A stretch of 21,100 bases of DNA from the IMG/VR virus record IMGVR_UViG_3300001838_000200, positions 1-21,100 of that record; one strand, 5' to 3'. The notes under the pieces were generated by a model, which saw nothing but the letters and a program-made list of their open reading frames with translations, had not been told where the DNA came from and did no database searches. A program made the translations under genes and the position numbers. Position 1 is the stretch's first letter. Each line of letters starts with the position of its first letter. The DNA is from a virus. Positions 3,822-9,303 of the stretch are shown here, piece by piece.

Positions 3822-5309
3822 TTATACGACACGGGTATTATCAATAATTAATCTTCTAAATGTTTCTTCCGTATTTCTAACAGCAACTTCAGTTAATTTT
3901 ATTATAGGTGTTGCGGCAGAATTCATGTTGTTTGAAATATTATTAATCATTGTTTGAACATCATCTTGTGGTTTAGGTAAATTCAATTGAGAATTTTCCT
4001 TTACAGCTTGAACCATTCTTTGCGATTTCTCGACACTAGGTACCGTAGTTGTTGTAGATACTGGTTGTGCTTTCTTTTTTCTAATTCCCGATTTTGGTGC
4101 AATGTAAACGGCTTTAGTTCCTTCTTGAATTAATTTTTCTCTATCTTCTTCAGCAAGTCTTTTAGCTGTTAATTCTTCTTCTGTTGGACCTTCAGGTAAA
4201 GGTTGCATCTTCAAACTTATCATTGCAGATGGTTCTGGATTTTTATCTAACCAATCCTGTAAATCTTGTTTATATACACCATATGCATTGAATATTTCTA
4301 TTGCATTTAAAGTTTTAAGAATTTCTTCAACATCACCTCTACGCATTTTGGTAAAGGTTTCTTTTCTATTTTCAGCACCAGCTTTACCTACTGTTTCTTT
4401 TTCACCTCGCAACACTTGTGCATAAGGAATATTATCAAATTTAGGATCAAATGGATTTGCTTCCAGTTCTTCTTTGTATTTGGCTGTCTCCTCGATTGCG
4501 AAATCAAGACCAGCTGCAACAATAGTTGGGCCAACCCAAGGCAATAAAGCTTTCAAAGTGCTTTTCATTGTAGATGCTTTTTCAGCACCTTTTGGTGGTT
4601 CTGGTGGTGTTGGTGTTGTTTTTGGTGTTCCACCTGGTTTTATTGGTTCGGGTCCAGGTGTTTTAGGATTTGTTTTTCCGGGTACCCCACCAATACCTGC
4701 AGGCCAAAGGTCTTTAATTTTATCCCAAATACTATCAAATAAACCCTTTTCTTGTTGTTGTTTCTTATCAAAGATAAGAATTGAAGGTACATTTAAAAAC
4801 TTTTTCAATTCTTCCATAAATTCATCATGTCGTTTTTTATCTTCAAGTTCTTTTTCTTCCAAAAAGTTTATTTCTTTGTTTCTTCTTTTTGTATCTTTGA
4901 ATTGTGATTCTCTTAATAATTGATAAATTTTATTCAACATACCACTTTGATCACCACCAACTTTTGTTAGAGGTTCAGTAGCTGTTATTGGTTTTAATTT
5001 TGATACTGTATCATAAGAACGAATTGGTCTATAACGACCAGTAAAGAATTGAATATCTCTTGCGGAACGACCTGTTAATTTTCCAAGCAAAGCAGGACCT
5101 AAAGAAGAACCGCCGGTCAAAAATTTGGCAACATTAAGTGGATCAAATTTTTGTTTGATACCTTTTTCGAAAGCCAGAGTTTTTAAAGAAAATGTCTTTT
5201 TTATTGCGCCGGTAATAGTTTGCTTTGGATCAGATAGTTGATCCGCAAATATATCAGCCCAGCCAGTTTTTCTAATTCTACTGGCTGTTTGGTATTCCAT
5301 ATTCTTCAT
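3822..5309 (-). CDS. hub/tape-measure-like structural protein
   Basis: A 495-residue protein without a recognised family name. Visible parts: an N-terminal globular region with GRSARDIQFFTGRYRPI (80-96); a charged coiled-coil stretch (125-172); a Pro/Thr/Gly-rich linker (204-243); a hydrophobic segment ALLPWVGPTIVAAGLDFAI (254-272) that could insert in a membrane; a charged helical region; and a C-terminal NNISNNMN segment followed by helix. The coiled coil and the C-terminal NN-rich segment resemble those of the protein encoded just upstream (5306-6745), suggesting an old tandem duplication. The start ATG overlaps the upstream stop (ATGA) with AAGG before it. Position next to gp26 and the hydrophobic patch make a tail tape measure or baseplate hub role plausible; no dedicated gp29 was otherwise found in the window. 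Confidence 0.6.
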   Translation of the reverse strand: MKNMEYQTASRIRKTGWADIFADQLSDPKQTITGAIKKTFSLKTLAFEKGIKQKFDPLNVAKFLTGGSSLGPALLGKLTGRSARDIQFFTGRYRPIRSYDTVSKLKPITATEPLTKVGGDQSGMLNKIYQLLRESQFKDTKRRNKEINFLEEKELEDKKRHDEFMEELKKFLNVPSILIFDKKQQQEKGLFDSIWDKIKDLWPAGIGGVPGKTNPKTPGPEPIKPGGTPKTTPTPPEPPKGAEKASTMKSTLKALLPWVGPTIVAAGLDFAIEETAKYKEELEANPFDPKFDNIPYAQVLRGEKETVGKAGAENRKETFTKMRRGDVEEILKTLNAIEIFNAYGVYKQDLQDWLDKNPEPSAMISLKMQPLPEGPTEEELTAKRLAEEDREKLIQEGTKAVYIAPKSGIRKKKAQPVSTTTTVPSVEKSQRMVQAVKENSQLNLPKPQDDVQTMINNISNNMNSAATPIIKLTEVAVRNTEETFRRLIIDNTRVV

Positions 5310-6745
5310 CCGTTATACCTTTTTTCAATAAATGGAGGATTGTCGTTAACTTTATTGTTTCTATATTCACCAGTAGTTTGTGTCTGATTAACTTGCAAAT
5401 TATTAATTATCTGTTGCATTGGTTGTGTTTGACTCAAATCTTTTTTCATATCTGTATTTTCTTTAGATGTATTATCTATTGTCTGACCACTTGATGGTTC
5501 GACTTCCAGAGAAAGTTTTCTTCTCATTTCTACACGGTTTTGTAACCCTTTGATTCTACTTTCACCATGAGTTTGTAAATATGTTGGAAACATTTTCTTA
5601 ATGTTTTCATCAGATATATCATGTTCTGCTATTTTTGTAATGAATTCTTCAGGAGTTTTTGCGGAAATAGAATATTTTATGGCACTTTCTTCCATAACTG
5701 TACCAACTTGGTTTCTTCTATCTGCCATGTATGTCAAAACTTTGTCATTTGAAGCCAACTCACTTGGCAACAATTTCTTCATATCCTTTTTTAATGGATC
5801 ATAAACATATTTTTCATACCATTTTATTTGTGCTTCATAAAACTCTTTAGTTTTTTCCGCAGCAACACTTTTCCAACTATCATCAAATTCTTTTGAACCA
5901 GGATTTCCAATCAAATTAAATTGTGGATTTTCTTTAATAAAGGTTTGAACAGAACCTTGTGAATTAATACCAAAAACACCGTATGATTTAACACCAGGTT
6001 TTGGATCATTATCTACGACCTGACCTACTTTTTTAACATCGGCACTAACGGATTTTAGGTCTTTTACTCCGGTTTCACCACGAACTGAAAGTGATGCAGC
6101 GGCAAGTAAACCACCACCTACAATTTTTTCTGCTGTTGGTGTAACAGGCTTAGGTATGACTGGCGGCGCCGTTGTGGTTGTTTTTGGTGGTAGCTGTGTT
6201 GCTGTTTTTGGTGTTATTACTGGCGCCGGTGTCTGAGTCACCGGTGCTTGAGTTGGTAAAGTTGTTTGTGGTGCAGTTTGAGGCGTTGGAGTTGTTTGAG
6301 TGGTGGTATTTTTTGGAACCGGAGTAGTTTGTGTTGTTGTAGTTGTTTTTGGTGTTGTTTCGGGTTGTGTAGTTGTTTGCGTTTTTTTATTTTTTTGTTT
6401 TTTTAATTTATCAATTTTTGGTTGATCGTCTTTTTTCTGTTTATCATCTATTTCTTTTTTCTTGGCAACAAATCTTTTTAAAGAAAAAGCTTTCATAATT
6501 TGTTTATGACGATCTTCTTCTTTTTGTTCTATTTGTATTTGCGTTTTGTCTTTTCTTTGATAATCTCGGTCTTTATCATTTTCGATTCTGACCATTAAAT
6601 TATAAATGTTACCAAGAATTTTTGGTGAAAGCTGTTTTCCAGCTTCCTCACCAGAAATTTCTTCTTGGTTACGATTCATCATGCGACTGAAACCATCCAG
6701 TATTTTACCGGTGTTTATTTTGGTTGATTCTTGAAGCTCAATCAT
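5306..6745 (-). CDS. hub-like protein with lysozyme-like muralytic domain
   Basis: A 479-residue protein. Residues 36-100 are a charged coiled coil (KILGNIYNL, then KEEDRHKQIMKAF); 121-206 a Thr/Pro/Gln-rich linker; about 218-400 a lysozyme-like domain; 440-479 an Asn/Gln-rich tail. The domain matches a phage and secretion-associated muralytic family by pattern: RGETG with candidate catalytic Glu224, then SYGVFGINSQGSVQTFI (254-270), a conserved Trp291, QIKWYEKYVYDPL (306-318), DRRNQVG, and a closing Arg/Glu helix. Family and catalytic residue are assigned from memory of the pattern. A tail-borne enzyme of this kind would open the peptidoglycan for DNA entry, replacing the lysozyme domain of T4 gp5, which is absent here. 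The ATG directly follows the stop of the gp51-like frame (TAAATG), so translation is probably coupled. Confidence 0.7.
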   Translation of the reverse strand: MIELQESTKINTGKILDGFSRMMNRNQEEISGEEAGKQLSPKILGNIYNLMVRIENDKDRDYQRKDKTQIQIEQKEEDRHKQIMKAFSLKRFVAKKKEIDDKQKKDDQPKIDKLKKQKNKKTQTTTQPETTPKTTTTTQTTPVPKNTTTQTTPTPQTAPQTTLPTQAPVTQTPAPVITPKTATQLPPKTTTTAPPVIPKPVTPTAEKIVGGGLLAAASLSVRGETGVKDLKSVSADVKKVGQVVDNDPKPGVKSYGVFGINSQGSVQTFIKENPQFNLIGNPGSKEFDDSWKSVAAEKTKEFYEAQIKWYEKYVYDPLKKDMKKLLPSELASNDKVLTYMADRRNQVGTVMEESAIKYSISAKTPEEFITKIAEHDISDENIKKMFPTYLQTHGESRIKGLQNRVEMRRKLSLEVEPSSGQTIDNTSKENTDMKKDLSQTQPMQQIINNLQVNQTQTTGEYRNNKVNDNPPFIEKRYNG

Positions 6746-6877
6746 TTATCGTTTTTGTCGTTCTTTTAATTTTTGGTTTTCTTCATCAAGATATTGTATC
6801 AACATTGTTACATAAATGTCACGCTCCCACGGTAACATATCTTCCAATTCACTCAAACTATACTTATGGTGTTGCAT
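6746..6877 (-). CDS. gp51-like short frame, probably expressed by -1 frameshift from gp26
   Basis: A short frame on the minus strand (43 residues from ATG at 6877) ends LPWERDIYVTMLIQYL then a charged Lys/Glu helix. The frame stays open 19 codons further upstream, back to 6934, where it meets the end of gp26. The ATG at 6877 has no Shine-Dalgarno sequence, whereas the upstream extension joins exactly to a -1 slippery site in gp26. The best reading is that it is the C-terminal part of a gp26 fusion of about 302 residues, like the G-GT tail chaperones of lambda. In T4-like phages the hub assembly factor gp51 acts alongside gp26, and this fragment probably stands in that place; the homology to gp51 is inference. 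It fills most of the gap between gp26 and the hub-like gene. Confidence 0.7.
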   Translation of the reverse strand: MQHHKYSLSELEDMLPWERDIYVTMLIQYLDEENQKLKERQKR

Positions 6878-6924
6878 CAAAGAAAAGTTAGTTTGATAAT
6901 AGTTTCTTAAAGTATCATAACAAA

Positions 6925-7653
6925 TTAAAACCCGAAAAAACTTTCGAGTCCTTCAACATTCATTTCATGTTCAAATTGACATTTGGAACATTTTAATTTA
7001 ACATCTTTTTTTAATTTTGGTAGATGTTCCAAAAAATTTTCAATTTTACTAAATTGTTGTTGATTTAATTGTTCCACAAATTGCAATAATTCTTCTTGTG
7101 TTTGTTCTTTTGCATAATAAAACTGTTCACCATCATAAATGTATTCAATTGAATTTGCTATCATATTAAATGTTACTTCAGTAATATTGTCTAACTGTAT
7201 GGAATTTTTAATTAAACCAAATTCTGGATATTTCATCTTCAATATCAAGTTTTCTGTCAATTGAATTTCAGGATTAATATCTTCATCTCTATCAATTTTA
7301 ATTTCAGTCAAATCAATTTTTGTTTCCATAATATTATTGCATAACTTATCTTCAACTATATTATTACAACGATATTTTGATTCAACAACTTCACCAACAG
7401 ATTTGGCTCTTAAATTGATAAAGAAATATTCCACATCAAGTATAGGCATTTCATCAAAGTTAATATCTTTGGTTAAGGTGCAAACTTCAAGTATATCTCT
7501 TACCACATTTTGAATACTGTCGGCATCACCAGATTCCATGGCCATTAAAAGATTTTTTTGTTCTTTAACAACAAATGGTCTGTATTTTAGTTTTTTCTTA
7601 CTTAAAGGCAATTCAATTTCATATGAAGGCAATTCAAGTTTTGGTAAAGGCAT
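6925..7653 (-). CDS. gp26: baseplate hub subunit gp26-like (T4_baseplate family)
   Basis: A 242-residue protein of the T4 gp26 baseplate family. The N-terminus (MPLPKLELPSYEIELPLSKKK, then YRPFVVKEQKNLL) is typical: a beta strand pair leading to a helix, similar to tail assembly chaperones. Four cysteines in two pairs (Cys96/Cys105 and Cys222/Cys225, CSKC) suggest a zinc site. In T4, gp26 belongs to the central hub; chaperone activity has been proposed for the family. GAGGAG precedes the ATG by seven bases, a strong ribosome binding site. The last codons hold a -1 slippery heptamer that would give a longer product of about 302 residues. It follows the tube-fold protein in the minus-strand operon. 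Confidence 0.85.
   Translation of the reverse strand: MPLPKLELPSYEIELPLSKKKLKYRPFVVKEQKNLLMAMESGDADSIQNVVRDILEVCTLTKDINFDEMPILDVEYFFINLRAKSVGEVVESKYRCNNIVEDKLCNNIMETKIDLTEIKIDRDEDINPEIQLTENLILKMKYPEFGLIKNSIQLDNITEVTFNMIANSIEYIYDGEQFYYAKEQTQEELLQFVEQLNQQQFSKIENFLEHLPKLKKDVKLKCSKCQFEHEMNVEGLESFFGF
6934..6954 (-). promoter_or_regulatory. -1 ribosomal frameshift site in gp26
   Basis: Reading the minus strand, the heptamer T TTT TTC (6940-6934) sits in the gp26 zero frame as codons TTT TTC, three codons before its stop. This is the standard X XXY YYZ slippery form. Slipping back one base gives TTT TTT and then CGG GTT TTA, which is exactly the open gp51-like frame. A Shine-Dalgarno-like GAAGGA lies at 6954-6949, eight bases before the heptamer, as in dnaX-type stimulators. 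No clear downstream stem-loop was seen by eye. Confidence 0.75.
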
Positions 7654-7670
7654 AATAACTCCTCATTATT

Positions 7671-8204
7671 TTAAATCAATCTAATCCAACTAGTATAAGC
7701 AAAAGTAACTGTTAATTTGTGATAACCTTCGGCATTCCAATCTAATCCTAGTTGTCCTACAGAAATCGGATATATTTCATTAAACATTACTCTATAAGTT
7801 TCTTCATTCATTTGATCATATTGGCTTATTTCTATATCACCAACATAATCTTCTTTATAATTAAAATCATATGATGTTTGTGGATTAATTAAACTCAACC
7901 AATCGTCAAATATTTTTTTCTGAGTCATCTCTCCATCTAATATAAATGTTAAATCCAGATCATTATATGTTGTTAAATAAGGAAACTTTTCAATAGGTCC
8001 ATATATTTTTTGTTCTGTTGTTGCAAGAGTTCTGGCTGGCAATTCAGCGGTTTCACAACGCAAAGTGATGGTTTCATAGCCATTTTCTGGCGGTACTTCA
8101 AAATCATTATTTTGTGGAAAAAAGATTCTGGCTTCAAACCTTTTGGGTGTTGAAAAATCTTTGGACCTAAAAGCACTTAGAAATCTATCTATTGATGCTG
8201 GCAT
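7671..8204 (-). CDS. tail-tube-fold protein (gp19/gp54 family)
   Basis: A 177-residue protein with the pattern of T4-like tube proteins: ITLRCETAELPARTLATTE (a short strand with Cys and the ELPGR/ELPAR turn), then GPIEKFPYLTTYNDLDLTFI, a helix KKIFDDWLSLI, and the C-terminal LGLDWNAEGYHKLTVTFAY strand pair. The tube fold is shared by gp19 (main tube) and the baseplate tube starters gp48 and gp54. Placement in a hub operon rather than beside a sheath gene favours a tube initiator or specialised first tube ring over the main tube, but this is inference. AAGGAATTC before the ATG is a good ribosome binding site; the start follows the previous stop directly. Confidence 0.75.
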   Translation of the reverse strand: MPASIDRFLSAFRSKDFSTPKRFEARIFFPQNNDFEVPPENGYETITLRCETAELPARTLATTEQKIYGPIEKFPYLTTYNDLDLTFILDGEMTQKKIFDDWLSLINPQTSYDFNYKEDYVGDIEISQYDQMNEETYRVMFNEIYPISVGQLGLDWNAEGYHKLTVTFAYTSWIRLI

Positions 8205-8868: not shown

Positions 8869-9303
8869 TTATAGTCCTAGATGTTCTTCAGTCAGTATTT
8901 TGAAATCCCATCCTCTGTCCAAACAATATTCCGATGCAGCCTTCCATTTGGCCTGATTCACACCCCAGGTCACAACCTCGTTTAAATATTGTTTAGTTAT
9001 TCTTTTCTTTTTTTCGGGTTCCATGGTCTGTTTTTTAGGTTTGACTTCAATCATCATGGTTTTGATTTTGCCATCTCTAGATTTAACTTTGACCAAAAAA
9101 TCTGGAAAATAACGGTGCCAACGACCATCAACGGGTGATATGTATGGTACAGTTAATTCTTCAGATGCCCATGATAAAATATCTGGATTTTTGTCGAGCC
9201 AATTCATCACTCTACATTCCCATGAAGAGCGATAAATGATGTTTTTGTGGTCCCCAACGTATTTTTGAGGATGTCTTGGTCTAAAAATTCCTTGGTAAGC
9301 CAT
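8869..9303 (-). CDS. gp4: head completion protein gp4 (nuclease-like fold)
   Basis: A 144-residue protein (T4 gp4 is about 150). FRPRHPQKYVGD, YRSSWECRVMNWLDKNP, SWASEELTVPYISPVDGRWHRYFPDF and MIEVKPKKQ follow the gp4 pattern closely. The family shares the TnsA/Holliday-resolvase-like nuclease fold: Glu28, Asp (YFPDF) and the E-x-K of IEVKPK form a likely active site. In T4, gp4 finishes packaged heads before tails attach. No Shine-Dalgarno sequence is seen before the ATG; a degenerate late motif (CATAATAT) lies just upstream. Divergent from the gp48/54 gene, with the two starts 34 bases apart. Confidence 0.92.
   Translation of the reverse strand: MAYQGIFRPRHPQKYVGDHKNIIYRSSWECRVMNWLDKNPDILSWASEELTVPYISPVDGRWHRYFPDFLVKVKSRDGKIKTMMIEVKPKKQTMEPEKKKRITKQYLNEVVTWGVNQAKWKAASEYCLDRGWDFKILTEEHLGL

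Follow-up and report, generated by a model that had tools for sequence, protein, structure and literature searches.

A probable -1 frameshift joining gp26 of a T4-like phage to a gp51-like frame, giving short and long forms of a tail assembly chaperone

One chaperone of a T4-like phage appears to be made in two lengths by means of a -1 ribosomal slip at the end of gene 26, a reading to which we assign a probability of about 0.9. The gene lies in a stretch of viral DNA of 21,100 nucleotides (positions 1 to 21,100 of IMG/VR record IMGVR_UViG_3300001838_000200), referred to here as the window. Most ribosomes would end at the gp26 stop codon and release a short form of 242 residues. Some would slip by -1 on the heptamer T TTT TTC, with two Phe tRNAs re-pairing with TTT TTT and an upstream GAAGGA helping the slip, and would produce a long form of 302 residues that carries a 'gp51' C-terminal domain beyond a Phe240-Arg241 junction. 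By analogy with lambda, the abundant short form may serve, like gpG, as a coat for the tape measure protein; the long form, expected to be rare, may recruit tail tube subunits in the manner of gpGT. Duplication of the frameshift gene in T4 and its nearest relatives would have fixed the two forms as separate genes, gp26 (short) and gp51 (long). Homologies, the junction, its conservation and gene copy numbers were read directly from the sequences; that the slip occurs, that it is the rarer outcome and that the products act as chaperones is what we infer.

Layout of the gp26 locus

The features of the locus are as follows, in the order of transcription.

7671-8204, minus strand: tail tube (gp19-like) gene, directly upstream of gp26 (phrog_45 7.2e-36, PF23849 1.8e-6)
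6925-7653, minus strand: gp26 homologue, putative short form (TAC-N), 242 aa (PF12322 1.2e-58, phrog_150 2.2e-62)
6949-6954, minus strand: Shine-Dalgarno-like GAAGGA, likely 5' stimulator, 8 bases upstream of the heptamer
6934-6940, minus strand: slippery heptamer T TTT TTC, in frame, its TTC being the third sense codon before the gp26 stop
6746-6934, minus strand: -1 frame, 62-residue C-terminal T-like 'gp51' domain (phrog_634 3.8e-28)
6875-6877, minus strand: sole ATG of the -1 frame ahead of the conserved core, lying mid-way through the conserved domain and lacking a Shine-Dalgarno match
5306-6745, minus strand: downstream neighbour, 479 aa, in tape measure position (PF21277 2e-9; phrog_3547 tape measure at E 0.015 only)

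The PF12322 profile matched residues 9-240 of gp26 with 198.8 bits (curated cut-off 24.5). The 3' end of the gene reads GTT GAA GGA CTC GAA AGT TTT TTC GGG TTT TAA on the minus strand, and after a -1 slip at the heptamer the next codon would be CGG (Arg241), the first of 62 open codons that end at a TAA at 6746-6748. A preliminary description, made from the sequence of the window alone, had proposed a slip into a 62-codon frame from a heptamer three codons ahead of the gp26 stop, with GAAGGA eight bases before it and an ATG lacking a Shine-Dalgarno sequence in the short frame, and all of these features were confirmed at the positions given above. The segment LPWERDIYV, described there as the end of the -1 frame, is internal and is followed by 20 further residues. 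The position of the ATG in mid-domain, together with its lack of a Shine-Dalgarno match, argues against an independent gene. The phrog_634 family to which the -1 frame belongs is annotated as 'baseplate hub assembly catalyst' (gp51). The -1 frame also matched the C-terminus of phrog_150 (2.2e-7), a profile of 282 positions, enough for full-length fused members such as T4 gp51.

We read gp26 as most probably the short form of a tail assembly chaperone, and the shifted product as the long form, as in lambda G/GT; gp26 had been described earlier as a T4-type hub gene, and tail assembly chaperone is the better description than hub structural gene. Two forms with a common N-terminal domain are present by anatomy in the window and as two real genes in T4. 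A tail tube gene, such as the one that adjoins gp26 upstream, is usually found next to genes for tail assembly chaperones. T4 gp51 is needed for assembly and absent from the particle (PMC3004832), which fits a chaperone. An AlphaFold2 model of gp26 reached a pLDDT of 85.7. A fold search of the PDB with this model gave no significant match, the HK97 tail assembly chaperone 2ob9 appearing at E 2.2 (prob 0.33), and the same search with a T4-type gp51 model was likewise without a significant match. In the latter model, of a natural fusion (L206), the added C-terminal domain is formed by three helices. Searches by sequence for solved homologues returned chance matches only, and a search of NCBIfam with gp26, the -1 frame and T4 gp51 gave nothing meaningful. 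The gp26 fold was matched by predicted proteins of many large non-T4 phages, such as PaBG, phiRSL1, SP-15 and Campylobacter CP220.

Several further observations concern the neighbourhood. Two minus-strand ORFs stand in the tape measure position, the 479-aa ORF at 5306-6745 and a 495-aa ORF at 3822-5309. The former encodes a VgrG3-like C-terminal domain (the PF21277 match) and a Pro/Thr-rich linker; a PHROG search bearing on tape measure identity of its product gave weak similarities only. At 8869-9303, also on the minus strand, lies a gene for a protein similar to head closure gp4 that contains a TnsA-like nuclease domain (PF08722 1.5e-27).

Conservation of the shift site and competing explanations

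All of 80 IMG/VR relatives (62-100% identity) have T TTT TTC in the gp26 frame, with the gp26 stop located one or two sense codons past the heptamer, and keep the -1 frame open. The comparison covered 194 related loci, comprising these relatives and cyanophage, Ackermannviridae, Aeromonas and other loci. The preliminary description had looked to the gp26 3' ends of related phages for a conserved heptamer and -1 frame, and this is what the comparison revealed: T TTT TTC in 172 of the 194 loci, T TTT TTT in 3, T TTC only in 19, and an open -1 frame in every one (194/194), although these are sequences of shared ancestry, in which events are not independent. T TTT TTC was also present in Stenotrophomonas, Xanthomonas, Ochrobactrum, Aeromonas and Vibrio phages, including Vibrio phi-ST2 (a Schizotequatrovirus). 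The 19 loci with T TTC only are those of Ackermannviridae and one Vibrio phage; in Serratia phage KNP4 (Ackermannviridae) the site is G GTT TTC. None of the relatives compared combined a disrupted heptamer with a downstream gene that is intact and well initiated. The nearest to such a disruption are the Ackermannviridae, with T TTC only, yet mostly without an early start codon downstream. The proposed joining of gp26 and a gp51-like frame by a -1 slip is thus supported by a heptamer, a -1 frame and a junction conserved across several phage families.

Codon usage at the site was equally uniform. The two Phe codons were TTT followed by TTC in 56/56 distinct window-group genes and in 79/79 cyanophage-group genes, which are again related by descent; TTC makes up 30% of all Phe codons in window-group genes and 22% in cyanophage-group genes. 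At other conserved Phe positions both codons were mixed, with a few positions leaning strongly to TTT. The Arg codon (CGN) read in the -1 frame may contribute to the constraint on the C of TTC, and such a constraint would itself be evidence for translation of that frame.

To gauge how often such an arrangement is to be expected, ORFs of 100 aa or more were scanned for two features: a heptamer of the form X XXY YYZ within the last 16 codons, and an extension of the -1 frame by at least 50 open codons past the stop. Within the window, 4 of 24 ORFs contained a heptamer, and gp26 alone also passed the -1-frame test. In the fetched loci, 182 of 1138 ORFs passed both tests, and 174 of these 182 end in FF at TTTTTTN, that is, they are the gp26 locus. 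Other ORF ends, near AAAAAAA or TTTGGGT and with a long open -1 frame, were seen in a few loci (L076, L078, L081, L022, L024, L025 and L027) and are probably due to chance.

RNA structure 3' of the site is a frequent aid to -1 frameshifting, though not an obligatory one. Cyanophages carry a hairpin 3' of the site that exceeds synonymous expectation, as judged by a per-sequence test only (mean z -2.58; 36/50 below -2). In the window group no 3' hairpin or pseudoknot was found (mean z 0.09 against synonymous expectation), and no 3' hairpin was present in the Ackermannviridae examined; a consensus fold of the whole alignment by RNAalifold revealed nothing in either the window or the cyanophage group. 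Predicted pairing of the upstream sequence with the anti-Shine-Dalgarno exceeded that after synonymous randomisation, with mean z -1.34 in the window group and -1.97 in cyanophages, a moderate effect among related sequences. Because the 3' hairpin is absent from the window group, the window site seems to depend on the heptamer together with the element upstream. The shift in Ackermannviridae would be a single-tRNA slip, since only the P-site Phe codon re-pairs well (TTC to TTT).

The -1 frame might instead be a separate small gene (gp51), translated either from a start codon of its own or by ribosomes that reinitiate past the gp26 stop. The annotations of S-PM2 and P-SSM2 take this view and begin gp51 at an ATG a few bases past the gp26 stop; nearly all of the 85 cyanophage-group loci have an ATG at stop+5, so that reinitiation is possible there. 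In the window group, however, the first ATG before the core normally lies at stop+50 or +53, within the conserved domain and with no Shine-Dalgarno match; the interval from the heptamer to mid-domain is ATG-free in all but two loci, and in 21 of the 86 the core is not preceded by any ATG. Ackermannviridae mostly have the mid-domain ATG only, and the early ATG is absent from ACG-2014h, SFP10 and UPM2146. A separate gene would also leave the fixed TTT TTC codons unexplained, and T4 gp51 demonstrates that the domain works when fused to a gp26-like domain. We therefore regard separate initiation as improbable.

Fixed codons and an open junction also bear on the idea that there are two genes, that the heptamer is kept merely for a Phe-Phe at the gp26 C-terminus and that the overlap is a relic. 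The short protein does conserve E-G-L-x-x-F-F in its own right, and T4 gp26, for which no shift is needed, still ends in LKEFFELL. It is codon choice that is fixed, however, and not the amino acids alone, and the -1 frame runs without a stop across the junction in every locus, which makes a relic overlap still less probable than a separately initiated gene. An extension that arises by transcriptional slippage on the run of six T, or by sequencing error, is scarcely credible: six T is a short run for transcriptional slippage, Ackermannviridae with four T only have the same -1 frame, and an error is excluded by the recurrence of the arrangement in dozens of independent contigs and in finished phage genomes. 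Programmed -1 frameshifting on the heptamer is the reading we retain.

The T4 gp26/gp51 pair and its history

T4 gp51 is a protein of 249 aa whose residues 1-201 match the gp26 family (PF12322 3.9e-52) and whose residues 147-246 match the cyanophage gp51 family. In profile-profile alignments, short forms fell on residues 6-201 of T4-type gp51 (1.6e-15) and -1 peptides on residues 201-252 (1.3e-9). These intervals are contiguous; the two halves of gp51 therefore meet where the frameshift would join gp26 and the -1 frame. The preliminary description had stated that genes 26 and 51 are separate in T4, which is true but incomplete, as T4 gp51 consists of a gp26-like domain and the same C-terminal domain. 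On the evidence of these alignments T4 gp51 is the long form as a standing gene, and its fusion is the best independent evidence for the frameshift reading.

Copy numbers were obtained by searching whole records. There was one PF12322 gene in 19/19 frameshift-type records and two in 6/6 T4-type records (T4, Acinetobacter Kimel, RB43, Aeromonas 31, Proteus phiP4-3 and Escherichia FL15). The C-terminal domain was found once per record in 21/25 records; its profile missed X1, SFP10, Moby and Vibrio K355, in all four of which the frame is nonetheless open. A tree of the N-terminal domain, with several long branches and a midpoint root only, placed T4-type gp26 and gp51 on one side and all frameshift-type genes opposite (95/95). 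Genes 26 and 51 are divergent in T4. In RB43 (L202, 1501-2244 and 2237-2794) gp51 and gp26 stand in tandem on one strand and overlap.

The simplest history that these sequences suggest begins with a frameshifting gene. Within one Straboviridae lineage it would have been duplicated, after which one copy retained the short form and the other came to encode a fixed long form. The frameshift is placed first in this history because it is so widely spread, most relatives of T4 apparently sharing it. A broader proposal, which we advance only tentatively and consider somewhat less likely to hold than to fail, is that the -1 frameshift is ancestral to the T4 superfamily (here cyanophages, Ackermannviridae, rhizobial, Xanthomonas/Stenotrophomonas and several Straboviridae phages), in the simpler form T TTC in Ackermannviridae, with the gene 26/51 pair as a derived duplication, an account that is not yet in print. 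Within one phage lineage, gene duplication apparently replaced the frameshift.

Many deposited genomes omit or mis-start the -1 frame, and the arrangement offers a simple rule for their correction. In L084, L085 and L092 and in the Ackermannviridae loci L088, L093 and L094, the deposited annotation lacks the C-terminal frame, so that gp26 is followed by a gap; in Ackermannviridae the next gene lies about 500 nt away.

Comparison with known systems

The parallel with lambda G/GT drawn in the preliminary description was upheld under comparison. In both systems a short form and a -1-shifted long form would share one start, the shift site lies just ahead of the short-form stop, and the gene adjoins the tail tube gene. 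The heptamers differ, G GGA AAG in lambda and T TTT TTC in the window, as do the short forms, of 140 aa and about 240 aa, respectively; the likeness drawn here is one of arrangement.

T4 gp26 and gp51 belong to the same protein family as the products considered here, with gp26 corresponding to the short form, gp51 to the long form, and the same fusion point. Unlike in the window, they are encoded by two genes (divergent in T4, tandem in RB43), and no frameshift is needed. The T4 chaperone pair has been published (Vladimirov, Gautam and Davidson 2022, Virology 566:9-15, as cited in PMC10274946 and PMC12846349). According to these citing papers, some T4-like phages have one short and one long fused chaperone gene with no frameshift (PMC10274946), and poly-T -1 signals occur in T4-like chaperone genes (PMC12846349). 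The T4 'hub assembly catalyst' gp51, long unexplained, can now be tied to the common tail-chaperone frameshift.

Cyanophage gp26/gp51 (P-SSM2, S-PM2) shares the gene pair, the heptamer and the -1 frame with the window, but is deposited as two genes and has the 3' hairpin that the window group lacks. Cyanophage gp51 has been reported to be without its first ~200 residues, and Aeh1 to be apparently without gp51 (Sullivan et al. 2010; PMC3037559). A frameshift would account for the 'missing' cyanophage residues, and may also explain the apparent absence of gp51 from Aeh1, judging from related Aeromonas phages. A conserved -1 poly-T shift has likewise been described in a myovirus tail assembly chaperone of Vandenendeviridae/Andersonviridae (phage Adele; PMC12846349); this system, compared here by description only, differs from that of the window in its phage families and in its motif, GTTTTT. 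The parts of the arrangement are thus largely known already, and the window is a well-supported further case of it rather than a new type of system.
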